Virus record (IMG/VR): IMGVR_UViG_3300010885_020795
Coordinates: 1 to 64,000 of that record
Source: a virus
Length of the DNA stretch: 64,000 nt
Strand: one strand, 5' to 3'
The notes beneath the pieces were generated by a model. It made no database searches, was not told where the DNA came from, and worked only from the letters and a program-made list of their open reading frames with translations. Shown here piece after piece: positions 7,678 to 11,854 of the stretch (its first letter is position 1; the number at the start of each line of letters is the position of its first letter). Position numbers and translations under genes: made by a program.

Positions 7678-7968
7678 TTATTTTTTAGGCTCGGGATTTT
7701 CACCAGTTAGCATTGGTCTGGCAAACCATAATTTAAACCATTCATCAGTGCCAGGTTTAATGTCGTGCTTTTTTTGATACTCACCTTTTTCGGTGCCAAT
7801 AGATCCATCAATCGGACTATCTCCAGATCGTTCCATTAGACCTAAAGTATCTATTCCTGCGAGTTTTTTTATTCTGGCTAGTTCACTTGGATCAACATAA
7901 GCATCAGGAATAGTAGGATCGTCACCACTGGTGCGAAAAGTTTCGCTGGTAATTCTATGCTGTTTCAT
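7678..7968 (-). CDS. Small hydrophilic unknown protein with RIKKLAGI motif, 96 aa
   Basis: A soluble 96-residue protein starting MKQHRITSETFRTSG, with a motif ELARIKKLAGIDTLG in the middle that resembles the RKLAGI end of the scaffold gp22 (30305-31411) and RRYAGI in the protein at 1-838. The rest is rich in Gly, Asp and Pro and looks unstructured. The start overlaps the end of the gp13 gene by ATGA, so expression is coupled to the neck protein. The family is not recognised; the position suggests a small virion or assembly component. Confidence 0.68.
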   Translation of the reverse strand: MKQHRITSETFRTSGDDPTIPDAYVDPSELARIKKLAGIDTLGLMERSGDSPIDGSIGTEKGEYQKKHDIKPGTDEWFKLWFARPMLTGENPEPKK

Positions 7969-8708
7969 CCGATGATAAATCCTACTGGGGTAGATCCATC
8001 AACATAAGTTCTTAGATCTTCTTCTAGTTTATCCATTTCAGCTTGAGCTTCGTTCTTTAAGTTATCACCGTTCAAACTTGTTCCGCCTTGCGGACCAGCA
8101 ATAGTACTAAATTTACTACGTGCTTCTCCTAGGTAAAATTTGGCCTGAGCAAATGCATAGTCTTTGATCCAAACACCTGCATACACATCATTCATGATAT
8201 CATCATCGGCACGTTCGATATCGCACCATAGCCACACTTCGTCATCGGCATTAAATTTTCTATGAATAAACAATGTCTTGTCTGTTCTGTTCCATGTAAA
8301 TGTAACGTATGCTCCGAACATACGAGCAATTAGTGCTCGTCTATCTGCATACATTTCGTAGTTGACAAGATTCTGTCCCATGCCGCCACCTTGTAACATT
8401 AGGTTACTCAAATAAACAGCATTAAATGGTTCGAAGTCTACGCCTGTGCCACTGCTTAAACTTCCTTGGAATCGTTTGATAACTTCGCGTACATTAACAA
8501 CATTGCCGGGGATTTGATAAGTTTGTTGGTATGTAAAAATTTCTAAAGGAATAAATGTTTCAAGTACAGCATTGGTTGCTCGTTGACGATACTTTCTAAG
8601 GGCTCTAGTCATGGCTAATTCATAGTGGCCTAAATCTAGCTCGACATCTACCATGCCGCCGCCCAGTCTTAGTTCTATTTCTTTAATTAATTCGTCTTTT
8701 ACACTCAT
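7965..8708 (-). CDS. gp13: Neck protein gp13
   Basis: 247 aa (T4 gp13 is 309). The start MSVKDELIKEIELRLGGGMVDVELD, the helical segment HYELAMTRALRKYRQRA and FIPLEIFTYQQTYQIP followed by NVVNVREVIKR match the gp13 family. In T4 gp13 and gp14 form the neck that seals the portal vertex and accepts the tail. It heads a late operon running through the nucleotidase and gp1 towards gp18. Its Shine-Dalgarno AGGAG lies inside the 3' arm of an 8-bp hairpin whose loop contains a GCTAAATA late box, predicting that only transcripts started at the late promoter are translated well. Confidence 0.85.
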   Translation of the reverse strand: MSVKDELIKEIELRLGGGMVDVELDLGHYELAMTRALRKYRQRATNAVLETFIPLEIFTYQQTYQIPGNVVNVREVIKRFQGSLSSGTGVDFEPFNAVYLSNLMLQGGGMGQNLVNYEMYADRRALIARMFGAYVTFTWNRTDKTLFIHRKFNADDEVWLWCDIERADDDIMNDVYAGVWIKDYAFAQAKFYLGEARSKFSTIAGPQGGTSLNGDNLKNEAQAEMDKLEEDLRTYVDGSTPVGFIIG

Positions 8709-8712
8709 GGAA

Positions 8713-8743
8713 AATCTCCTACTAGTATATTTAGCAGGAGATT
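8713..8743 (-). promoter_or_regulatory. Terminator-like hairpin enclosing gp13 late promoter and hiding its Shine-Dalgarno
   Basis: AATCTCCT pairs with AGGAGATT (8736-8743 with 8713-8720) followed by TTTT on the minus strand. The late box GCTAAATA (8728-8735) sits next to the 5' arm. AGGAG in the 3' arm is the gp13 ribosome site. Transcripts from the lipoprotein operon would fold; those started at the late box would lack the 5' arm. Confidence 0.65.
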
Positions 8744-8748
8744 GAAGT

Positions 8749-10125
8749 TTAATTTAAAGGAATTTTGATACTACATTTACTGGTGTTAAACAAAGGATCT
8801 GTCATGTCACGCTCACAGCCTGCTACAAAAGGCACTAAGTTAAGTTTATCTTTTGTCAGTTTTAACTGTGGACTAATAGCGCCTTCGCTCATTCCCAAAT
8901 CTCGATCCAAGGAATAGATCTGTGTTACTGCCAAAGTTACGGCATCAATCTTCTTAACAGTCATTACTCCGGGCCAGTTACCACCACTGTGGTCAACATA
9001 AAAACTGCCGTCTTTATAAAGAATATCTAAAGGGCTTGCTTGATAGCCTACTTGTAATGGAAGATATGTGGGAGCGACTGAGCTAAAATTTCCATTACCC
9101 GGATTTTTATACCATGCTACTTTGTCGCCAACTGCAACCAAATCAATGCGTCCATTTTCTGTGGGTATTAAGTATGTCCAGTATACGTGAATCGATGACC
9201 CAACATCTGTGACCATACTAGCTGGCATCCTGGTATAATCTTTTGTAAAAGTACCATCGCCATTGCCCATTAAGAAATAAGGACGATAGTCTTCGGAGGG
9301 ATTTGTATTACCCCAGCTGGCATTTACTGTGGCTACGTCTGCTTTACCGTCACCATTAATATCTGCTGTACTGGCATGATGCCCGTAAATTTTACCAGGA
9401 ACTACGATTCGTTTGTATGTGCCGTCAACTTGACTTAAAAAGACTATCTGATCATCGAACATGATATTTCGCCAAGTACTGGGAAATATTTGATCAATTG
9501 ACTGTCCTGTAATTGTATCGCCTGCACCAAAACTATAATCAATGCCATGACAGCTTACAAACAGGTCAGGTTTAGAATCATTGTTAAAGTCGGCTACGGC
9601 TGTATAACTATGACTTACACAAGTATAACGATCGCTTTCATTGGGCAACAATGTCGATGTTTTATCAACCCACTTGCCGTTTATAAATTTAGCAAAGTAT
9701 ACTTTATTTGGAGCATCTACAATTGGTTTATTTTTCAAATAACTATCATGAACTCCTGTTCGACGCCATGTTGTTAAAAAGGCGCTGTAAGTACCGTCTT
9801 GGAAAAAGTCTCCGAACGCCAAACTCCTATCATTGACCACACCTCCATTGCAACCAGTTGTGTTGCAGCCTGCAGATTTTTCTGCATCACTAAAGATCCA
9901 ACCATTAGCGTCCCTTAGCAGTCTAAACGAAGGCAATTGCACACTATCAGTGATAATCAAATTTTTATTATTATAAGAAGTCAGCGATACACTTAGTTTA
10001 TTGTTACTAGGCGGATTACTAGTAGTATTTACATTATCCGATGGAGCAGTAATACCACCGCCTCCGCCTCCGCCACAGCCGGTAAGAGCCGTGGTAATAG
10101 CTACCAACAGTAACAATTTATTCAT
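8749..10125 (-). CDS. FG-GAP/VCBS-repeat lipoprotein, putative host-envelope protein
   Basis: The start is the ATG at 10125: MNKLLLLVAITTALTGC is a textbook lipoprotein signal with lipobox LTGC, Cys17 as the lipidated residue and Gly at +2, followed by seven glycines. The mature 440-residue domain is secreted in character and holds calcium-binding FG-GAP-type loops such as VADFNNDSKPDLF and TADINGDGKADVA, plus weaker copies. Extra cysteines (CNTTGCNGG) could form disulfides. Such proteins are common on bacterial surfaces but rare in T4-like phages. The gene follows the 401-aa gene by ten bases, downstream of a consensus sigma70 promoter, and ends at a terminator-like hairpin, so early expression is inferred. 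It could alter the outer membrane, for example to block superinfection; host-derived transfer is possible. Confidence 0.87.
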   Translation of the reverse strand: MNKLLLLVAITTALTGCGGGGGGGITAPSDNVNTTSNPPSNNKLSVSLTSYNNKNLIITDSVQLPSFRLLRDANGWIFSDAEKSAGCNTTGCNGGVVNDRSLAFGDFFQDGTYSAFLTTWRRTGVHDSYLKNKPIVDAPNKVYFAKFINGKWVDKTSTLLPNESDRYTCVSHSYTAVADFNNDSKPDLFVSCHGIDYSFGAGDTITGQSIDQIFPSTWRNIMFDDQIVFLSQVDGTYKRIVVPGKIYGHHASTADINGDGKADVATVNASWGNTNPSEDYRPYFLMGNGDGTFTKDYTRMPASMVTDVGSSIHVYWTYLIPTENGRIDLVAVGDKVAWYKNPGNGNFSSVAPTYLPLQVGYQASPLDILYKDGSFYVDHSGGNWPGVMTVKKIDAVTLAVTQIYSLDRDLGMSEGAISPQLKLTKDKLNLVPFVAGCERDMTDPLFNTSKCSIKIPLN

Positions 10126-10135
10126 TTTAAACCTT

Positions 10136-11341
10136 TTACTTGTATGCTTTGAGCAATACAATGTCTGCGTTAATACGACCGTTAAGTTTAGTTTCTGTGG
10201 CTCGAACACCTTTAAACCATTTCTTTGCGGCGGGCTTACCATTGCTGGATAATTCCTTTAGTTGATCTGCAGGTTTGCGTAGAGTTTTTTGCACACTGGC
10301 CGCGGCATCAAATCCTGTGATCGTTTTACCTTTGACTGCTAAAGTACCAGCATATTGATCCACAATGTAGATGCCTAGTTTTCTATTCTTTGTGTTATAA
10401 ACCCAAAGTTCTTGAGCACTAAGAATTTGTGTAGGTTCCACACTTTTGAGTTTAAGGTCAGCAAACTCTTTAAGATACACTAACTTACTAACAATCTTCT
10501 CAGGCGGAACAGCCTTTTTCTTACGAGGTGTTTTACTGGCTTTTTTAACAATGTTATAACTGTTGGCATCTGCCAAGGCCTGTTGCCACCATTTAATAAT
10601 GGCATTCAATTGGCGCTTGCCCAAGTGCTTGTATGCTTCCAGCAATTGGCTATCTTTTGTAGTAAGAATTTCTTCGTACTCATCGATTCTACGCTCGAAG
10701 AAACTTTGAGTAGATTTCAGTTGAGCAGGTTGAATATTAAATTGTACAAACAAATCAACTAGTTTCGGATCACCTTTGAAATCATTGGCAGTGATAAAGT
10801 CATCAAAACGACCTTCAACTTCTCCTAGACATTCGCTCATTTTTTCATTGAGACGATCTTGGATGTTAGGAGCCTTGGCTTTAACTTCGACTTTTTCTTT
10901 TACTTCAGGTTTTAGATTTTTTAATTGTTTTTCAGCGACCTTAAGATGTTTAATCAAAGTACGCAGACTGCCAAAGCGTAGTTTCAATCCAACACGAGCG
11001 GCTCGAAATGCAAAGCCAGCAGTACTGCCTGGCCAAGCTTCACCTCGTTTAATTGCTTCTGCTAGGGCCGCACGTCGAGGATTACGAATCAGGAATTGAT
11101 GCACCCACTCTGCACTCTTTTTGGCATCCTGTGTATAACTGTACCAATTTAATGTTTTTAACAGTTGAGTTTGATACTCGCTGTTAGTCCAAGCATCTTG
11201 TTCTTCCACAGAAGGATAACGGGGTTCATCGCCTACATACTTACTGTCAGCGTCCCTGTACATCAAGGGCTTTGCAGGATCGGCAAAGCGCCATGCAATT
11301 TTTGTATCAGTGTTTTTAACAGCCGGTTTTCGAATAGCCAT
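10136..11341 (-). CDS. Unknown basic protein, 401 aa, early-type promoter
   Basis: A Lys-rich protein with N-terminal aromatic segment (NTDTKIAWRFADPAKPLMYR in part), a helical middle with a charged stretch near residues 140-160 (EVKEKVEVKAKAPNIQ), a basic linker SKTPRKKKAVPPEK near 270 and a compact C-terminal domain containing LWVYNTKNRKLGIYIVDQ and ETKLNGRINADIVLLKAYK. I have seen similar conserved hypothetical proteins in aquatic T4-like phages but know no function. The ATG follows a strong GGAGG and an exact TTGACA-N17-TATAAT promoter at 11360-11388. The lipoprotein gene follows ten bases after its stop, so the two form a putative early operon. Basic charge would allow nucleic-acid binding, but no motif shows this. 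Confidence 0.8.
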   Translation of the reverse strand: MAIRKPAVKNTDTKIAWRFADPAKPLMYRDADSKYVGDEPRYPSVEEQDAWTNSEYQTQLLKTLNWYSYTQDAKKSAEWVHQFLIRNPRRAALAEAIKRGEAWPGSTAGFAFRAARVGLKLRFGSLRTLIKHLKVAEKQLKNLKPEVKEKVEVKAKAPNIQDRLNEKMSECLGEVEGRFDDFITANDFKGDPKLVDLFVQFNIQPAQLKSTQSFFERRIDEYEEILTTKDSQLLEAYKHLGKRQLNAIIKWWQQALADANSYNIVKKASKTPRKKKAVPPEKIVSKLVYLKEFADLKLKSVEPTQILSAQELWVYNTKNRKLGIYIVDQYAGTLAVKGKTITGFDAAASVQKTLRKPADQLKELSSNGKPAAKKWFKGVRATETKLNGRINADIVLLKAYK

Positions 11342-11359
11342 ATATCCTCCAAAAAATTA

Positions 11360-11388
11360 ATTATAGCAGAATGTTAGTTATTTGTCAA
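11360..11388 (-). promoter_or_regulatory. Exact sigma70 promoter for 401-aa/lipoprotein operon
   Basis: TTGACA (plus positions 11383-11388) and TATAAT (11360-11365) with a 17-base spacer; GGAGG and ATG follow. It lies partly behind the metallopeptidase stop. Confidence 0.85.
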
Positions 11389-11390
11389 TT

Positions 11391-11819
11391 TCACTGATTT
11401 ACGACAGCCCACAGTTTATTGGCCAAAACCATTTGCTGACTCCATGCTTGGATTTCCCAAGGACGGTTATAATAACTTGCAACAACCTTTTTTCCCAACC
11501 AAAAAGGTGTTTCCTTGCCTCTGATATATTTCCATTGCAGTTTACCCGAAGCCAATTGCTTGATATGCACCATTTCGTGGGCCAGGGTTTCCACCATTTT
11601 TTCTATGTCTAAACGACTGTCTAAAATTACTACTAAAGTATTATCAGGCAACTTGCTAGCCATACCCCTAGCACCTTCTTCTGCGATCAAATTTTTCTTG
11701 GTAGAAATTAGTAGTTTATGCTTAAATTTTTCAAGTTTAAGTTCTTTGATAAACAAAGCAGTCGCGGCTTCTAAGAAGGCACGTTTGCCACTGTTGCGTA
11801 GGAGTATTTCTGTGTTCAT
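11391..11819 (-). CDS. Small zinc metallopeptidase-like protein (HExxH)
   Basis: 142 aa with the zincin signature HEMVHIKQ (H81, E82, H85) and a downstream acidic residue in RPWEIQAW (E122) that could be the third zinc ligand, as in SprT-like and related short metallopeptidases. The N-terminal part is helical followed by strands (HKLLIST, NTLVVILDSRL). The substrate is unknown; phage enzymes of this type could act on host or virion proteins. The ATG lies six bases after an exact consensus -10 box, so its mRNA from the sigma70 promoter at 11826-11854 should have almost no leader, and no Shine-Dalgarno is present. It is divergent from gp14. Confidence 0.8.
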   Translation of the reverse strand: MNTEILLRNSGKRAFLEAATALFIKELKLEKFKHKLLISTKKNLIAEEGARGMASKLPDNTLVVILDSRLDIEKMVETLAHEMVHIKQLASGKLQWKYIRGKETPFWLGKKVVASYYNRPWEIQAWSQQMVLANKLWAVVNQ

Positions 11820-11825
11820 GTGTTA

Positions 11826-11854
11826 ATTATACAATAAACGGGATTTACTGTCAA
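11826..11854 (-). promoter_or_regulatory. Exact sigma70 promoter for metallopeptidase
   Basis: TTGACA (11849-11854) and TATAAT (11826-11831), spacer 17. Only six bases separate TATAAT from the ATG at 11819, predicting a leaderless mRNA. Confidence 0.85.

Follow-up and report, generated by a model that had tools for sequence, protein, structure and literature searches.

T4-like phages have accessory-gene hot spots (morons and hyperplastic regions) whose content varies between core genes, and phage PA-2 reportedly encodes a porin, Lc. Propellers of the FG-GAP/VCBS type include the GlcNAc-binding fungal lectins (PVL and AAL2-type), CRTAC1, and integrin alpha. The phage T5 lipoprotein Llp is small (<~10 kDa), periplasmic, and acts on FhuA (PMC9586334), and in T4 I-TevI, soc, e, and other genes have a late promoter inside a hairpin that sequesters the ribosome-binding site on read-through early RNA (PMC2988022).

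The locus described here resembles Llp in that it encodes a phage lipoprotein, which we propose to be made early and to reduce phage adsorption to infected cells; it differs in that the product is a 458-amino-acid (aa) propeller on a Gly tether, encoded in a slot into which enzymes are swapped. The parallel extends no further than effect, and the 458-aa protein may work to the same end. As in I-TevI, soc, and e, a hairpin lies over a ribosome site and holds a late-promoter motif, but here it guards a gp14-like neck gene and is the fixed border of the cargo slot. The product shares its FG-GAP calcium loops and fold with the FG-GAP/VCBS propellers, yet has a motif of its own (ADFNxDG..CHGxD..YHGAxAADVNGDG), is predicted to be lipid anchored, and belongs to a family of phages and Burkholderiales. 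As in the T4-like hot spots, gene content varies at one set position among core genes; here, however, the occupant is almost always a single exported protein made of exchangeable export modules and cargo domains. The likeness to PA-2 Lc is that a phage would alter the outer membrane of its host while infecting it: a porin gene lies by the slot in 17 relatives, although the window has none.

The FG-GAP lipoprotein and its family

The IMG/VR virus record, from a lake phage, is 148,445 bp long, and the window, the whole stretch of DNA analyzed, is its first 64 kb. On the minus strand, where all window features given below lie, transcription runs from a putative Zn-metallopeptidase gene (positions 11391 to 11819; phrog_10499, HEMVH motif) through a 401-aa gene and the FG-GAP lipoprotein gene to the gp14-like neck (head-tail adaptor) gene (7965 to 8708). 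The T4-like setting among late head and tail genes proposed in the first-pass annotation was borne out by matches to the gp15 tail sheath stabilizer (PF16724, 1.6e-29) and, for the gp14-like gene, to the neck protein phrog_211 (3.5e-32). A small putative Zn-metallopeptidase with HEMVH is kept beside the 401-aa gene in relatives, at about 26 to 36% identity.

The lipoprotein gene occupies positions 8749 to 10125 and encodes 458 aa beginning MNKLLLLVAITTALTGCGGGGGGG; a mechanically called open reading frame (ORF) from 10242 (497 aa) differs merely by an upstream ATG, and the 458-aa form is used here. Its signal peptide and LTGC lipobox span 10075 to 10125, with Cys17 at codon 10075 to 10077, and the lipobox (LLLLVAITTALTGC) satisfies the pattern [LVI][ASTVI][GAS]C. 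Seven glycines follow (G18 to G24; 10054 to 10074) and would link the lipid anchor to the propeller. Gly at position +2 predicts sorting of the lipidated product to the outer membrane under the E. coli Lol rule. Profile searches of the protein returned PF13517 (FG-GAP_3) at 55.9 bits (cutoff, 26.9; E = 6e-15) and PF01839 (FG-GAP) at 37.8 bits (cutoff, 22.1; E = 2e-9). Sequence, Pfam, and family alignment place two calcium loops, DFNNDSKPD at residues 179 to 187 (9565 to 9591) and DINGDGKAD at residues 255 to 263 (9337 to 9363). C169 and C192 are invariant in 32 family sequences, and H193 and H249 almost so; the two cysteines fit with an exported protein, and a disulfide is plausible. Only FG-GAP families were matched in Pfam, with no polysaccharide-lyase family among them. 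The 458-aa protein is an FG-GAP lipoprotein; by size and fold it is not an Llp.

An AlphaFold2 (AF2) model built with 31 relatives reached a pTM of 0.80 and a pLDDT of 74.5, with many blade strands above 90. Among the Foldseek matches listed, most were propellers, with CRTAC1 best (1e-6) and the others including kelch and WD40 proteins, GH43, sialidases, and PVL lectin; the TM score was below 0.6 for every listed PDB match, and the model is of middling quality. The first-pass annotation had called the complete lipoprotein signal, the FG-GAP repeats with their calcium loops, and a beta-propeller-like product. These calls hold, with the reservations that the TM scores are low and that DFNNDSKPD lies one letter away from Dx[DN]xDG.

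A profile of the family matched PDB sequences of the lectin 4tqj (6e-10), CRTAC1, the GlcNAc-specific lectin 5mb4, integrins, and PVL (2bwm also listed), with propeller lectins near the top. This lectin likeness lies in FG-GAP repeats, a type common to integrins, and is no proof of sugar binding. Searched alone, the lipoprotein matched no PDB sequence and none of 50,697 phage records, and in IMG/VR it matched one contig, with an identical protein; the family was reached through an alignment-based search instead. Very close copies were confined to two loci (L009, identical at 100%, and L017, 68%). Family lipoproteins also occur at other sites in other phages (L091, L093, L096, L097, L101, L102, L107, and L109). 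One of these, in a 263-kb phage contig (L091:69-10926), is 39% identical to that of the window and lies among glycan-biosynthesis-like genes (sugar-nucleotide, glycosyl, and polysaccharide looking). Bacterial homologues come chiefly from Burkholderiales (Collimonas, 34%; Janthinobacterium; Undibacterium; Massilia; Variovorax) and either are lipoproteins or have other extracellular domains (DUF4214, DUF5648, or Ig-like). A Janthinobacterium chromosome (L112:4977-7888) encodes two different family FG-GAP lipoproteins in tandem. In the open-access full texts searched, neither phage FG-GAP lipoproteins nor a slot of this kind was described.

A conserved promoter and a hairpin around the slot

The exact TTGACA-N17-TATAAT promoter that had been noted ahead of the 401-aa gene was confirmed as a sigma-70-type element at 11360 to 11388 (TTGACAAATAACTAACATTCTGCTATAAT), and it is conserved in relatives. 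The record holds seven such sites, versus zero for a reversed control pattern. One of these, at 11826 to 11854, belongs to the metallopeptidase gene, and other exact copies precede genes that look nonstructural on ORF reading, such as VWA/metallopeptidase-like and flap-nuclease-like genes. Among 43 related loci, TTGAC[AT]-N16-18-TATAAT lies directly 5' of the 401-aa gene in 25, where shuffles give an expectation of 0.015, and within 2.2 kb of it in 34. By contrast, TATAAATA/GCTAAATA motifs go with late-type genes: in the window, several of these have a TATAAATA-like motif 24 to 41 nucleotides (nt) upstream.

The first gene of the unit (10136 to 11341) encodes the 401-aa protein, which belongs to phrog_11903; its predicted structure is helical but of low certainty (pTM 0.35) and matched nothing in the PDB. 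Relatives are encoded by 215 IMG/VR stretches, 80 of which were kept, and homologues occur in Cr30, PA5oct, and Sinorhizobium phages. The gene is retained where the slot is empty (L010, L046, L057, and the more remote loci read in the range L067 to L087), and it is missing beside the FG-GAP relatives of other phages and of bacteria. The suggestion that it might be a needed partner of the lipoprotein is therefore not supported: the 401-aa gene is conserved among phages and not tied to the lipoprotein.

At the other end of the unit, an RNA hairpin (8713 to 8743; folding energy, -15.8 kcal/mol) precedes the gp14-like gene, and its 3' arm is the Shine-Dalgarno sequence of that gene. The element reads AATCTCCCG-(C/A)TAAATATA-...-CGGGAGATT. 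Across relatives, 97.9% of cells are paired, versus 34 to 59% in slid controls, and compensatory double changes occur in four of nine pairs. A T4-late-promoter-like GCTAAATA sits in the loop (8728 to 8735), and the same motif is found ahead of other late-type genes of the window; TAAATA after GC, GA, or similar lies in the loop of every element folded. An IMG/VR scan found 50 stretches with the element, about 33 nt 5' of the gp14-like gene in those read, with one exception. In that locus (L153:3709-5316), the hairpin precedes an inserted 524-aa ORF, possibly a tail-fiber-like late gene, and the element therefore marks a border rather than one gene. In the region before the neck gene of PA5oct, the ATAAATA motif was present and the hairpin was not seen.

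The first-pass annotation had read this hairpin as a terminator. We dropped that assignment: a terminator would be a hairpin with a T-run behind it and apart from any translation start, whereas this one has the Shine-Dalgarno sequence in its 3' arm, the late motif in its loop, and the start codon directly past the stem, although some weak termination is possible. Read from its sequence, it is a predicted early/late border, a late-promoter element that sequesters the gp14-like ribosome-binding site, and the slot gene lies on its early side. Together, the conserved sigma-70-type promoter and the late-gene hairpin argue for early expression, and the slot gene is likely to be made early.

A variable slot with two kinds of export leader

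Our survey of the slot covered about 45 related contigs from T4-like freshwater phages, all of them metagenomic and without a proven host, some near-duplicates; contigs closest to the window may be missing from the collections searched. In loci that keep the neighboring genes, the slot runs from the 401-aa gene to the gp14-like gene with its hairpin, and its content varies. Nothing lies there in L010, L046, and L057 or, farther from the window, in the loci read in the range L067 to L087, whereas 34 of 37 rows of a backbone tree have an occupant. Occupants other than the window's include FG-GAP propellers of several subfamilies, alginate-lyase-like proteins (PF05426, 23.4 bits, barely above the cutoff of 22.2), polysaccharide lyases (PF14099; 1e-23 and 1e-25), a beta-lactamase-fold hydrolase (PF00144; 1e-17), and SGNH-like proteins, which matched a GDSL protein weakly (E = 0.03). 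Searches with profiles of the alginate-lyase-like and of the PF14099-like occupants turned up no solved structure. Two occupants stand in a row in L019, L021, L033, and L051, and the cargo ORF of L012 looks broken. The start of the first slot gene overlaps the 401-aa stop codon (ATGA) in all 41 occupied relatives; the window has a 10-nt gap at this point. Export leaders are present on nearly all occupants; the SGNH-like proteins of L044 and L054 have no signal peptide, so export is not universal among cargos.

These leaders are of two kinds. In the first, a lipobox and Gly-rich linker are fused to the cargo, as in the window (16 of 31 classified rows, the window included). In the second, a signal peptide is followed by a carrier domain made of two repeats (about 110 aa), 71 to 90% identical to that of L030, which had no Pfam match and no convincing PHROG match. 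A gene for a 55- to 59-aa lipoprotein lies directly 5' of the carrier-domain cargo in 17 of 17 loci of the second kind, versus 0 of 24 others. This small protein has a conserved tail, NPFQE.LGK.LP.QP..P.PTDPFAPVLKKNGG (L034:7194-7370 and 16 other loci). Because the either/or between leader kinds is strict, we infer that the 55- to 59-aa lipoprotein may anchor the carrier in trans.

In the loci compared, cargo and leader are joined in different combinations: alginate-lyase-like cargo is common to both leaders at 84 to 89% (L024/L040 with L034/L052, and L013 with L038), FG-GAP type C cargo occurs with both (L048 versus L023, 84%), and one carrier bears unrelated cargo (L033 versus L034; carrier 94%, cargo 20%). 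On the backbone tree, a quickly built tree of 37 rows based on the 401-aa and gp14-like proteins, in which the branch of the window is long, cargo class changes 17 times, versus a mean of 16.9 for shuffled labels, while leader kind changes 5 times versus 10.6 (0 of 300 shuffles as low). Cargo is thus random on the tree and leader is not, which suggests that cargo is freely exchanged and that the export hardware follows lineage. The slot is very likely a modular socket for surface effectors.

Porin genes fill a second variable place, 5' of the metallopeptidase and 401-aa genes, and are present in 17 related loci, as Porin_1 (PF00267) in L035 and as Porin_4 (PF13609) otherwise. Examples are L010:4577-5455, L018:4522-5427, L033:4518-5426, L035:3771-4679, L048:3870-4751, L051:2504-3391, L057:4479-5498, and L153:97-1146; further loci with the 401-aa gene have them too. 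The closest solved structure to these phage porins is Omp32, a porin from Delftia. The carrier domain was found in 2 of 200 genomes from the order of the Janthinobacterium match. In a Burkholderiales metagenome-assembled genome (L122; G003 contig 80), a chromosomal carrier plus FG-GAP gene with this same domain order is seemingly split by the insertion of two IS3-type-transposase-like ORFs. The porins, the origin of the homologues, and the origin of the carrier repeats together suggest Burkholderiales hosts, and the island appears to be devoted to the outer surface.

Possible roles of the slot product

A role at the host surface becomes more likely because polysaccharide lyases alternate in the slot and porins adjoin it in relatives. 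The first-pass reading of the product as a surface effector accordingly stands in part: the exported FG-GAP lipoprotein, the propeller, and the early-type promoter remain, and the terminator and the obligate 401-aa partner do not. An effect on host-colony behavior, raised at the same time, was dropped, as no evidence spoke for it.

We propose that host sigma-70 RNA polymerase would transcribe the 401-aa gene and the slot gene early in infection, that the hairpin over the ribosome site would keep the neck gene untranslated on this early message, and that the neck gene would later be switched on from the late promoter that the hairpin contains. The slot product would be exported, and Cys17 and the Gly-rich tether would anchor it to the outer membrane, where a calcium-stabilized propeller would be displayed; that the protein is an exported, outer-membrane-anchored propeller is highly probable from its sequence features. 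The propeller would most likely bind or alter host surface polysaccharide, as expected of the lyases that sister phages have in its position, and such a target has somewhat better than even odds in its favor. The result would be reduced adsorption of further phages and reduced re-adsorption of progeny, a net effect that we put forward tentatively. As a whole, early remodeling of the outer surface by slot cargo that limits adsorption is a reading with about an even chance of being right.

Other explanations weigh the same features differently. The cargo might serve the progeny, with tethered propellers and lyases loosening the capsule or slime of the host and so helping virions to get away once the cell lyses, with no exclusion taking place; the polysaccharide-lyase families among the alternative occupants suit this idea, as does the carrier-domain form, which could be released or loosely held. 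Neither an early promoter nor a tether on the producing cell would be needed for it, late expression being enough, and we consider it rather unlikely. A direct receptor blocker like T5 Llp, in which the propeller hides a host outer-membrane protein such as a receptor porin, would account for a phage lipoprotein with an early-type promoter and for the relatives' own porins beside the slot, as if porins were the receptor. Such blocking is nonetheless distinctly unlikely, since Llp, a small protein, works from the periplasmic side (PMC9586334) and the swaps of propeller and lyase at one site point to polysaccharide, not to one protein partner.

It is also conceivable, if quite improbable, that host surface-protein genes were caught at a tolerant early/late site and have no selected role in infection. 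Cargo turnover as fast as random relabeling, the Burkholderiales homologues, and the seemingly broken L012 cargo would follow from this; the ATGA overlap in every occupied relative, the retention of two export solutions, and the filling of the slot in nearly all tree rows speak against it. FG-GAP domains are present in some virion proteins, and the gene adjoins neck and tail genes, as an ordinary virion or neck-associated protein with a signal-like start would. The lipoprotein matched no virion or structural protein family in PHROG or the phage records. Most relatives have a full lipobox, the promoter is of the early type, close relatives lack or replace the gene, and bacterial relatives are lipoproteins. 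We dropped the virion explanation, whose probability is very small.

In more general terms, the locus may serve lytic T4-like phages as a plug-in platform for surface display, a proposal we regard as evenly balanced: an early fixed socket would put exchangeable domains on the host outer surface, through a fused lipid anchor or a separate 55- to 59-aa lipoprotein holding a carrier, with a porin alongside in many. Most of the known phage genes that change the host surface in lytic infection are isolated examples. The slot would be a fixed point of exchange for complete surface effectors among related phages, with the export hardware and the early/late switch retained; it lets such effectors be found by position alone and offers a natural domain-swap set. 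It would also make a case for surface-polysaccharide arms races among freshwater, probably Burkholderiales-infecting, phages and, if the proposal is true, would give these phages modular control over attachment to, or escape from, the infected cell.
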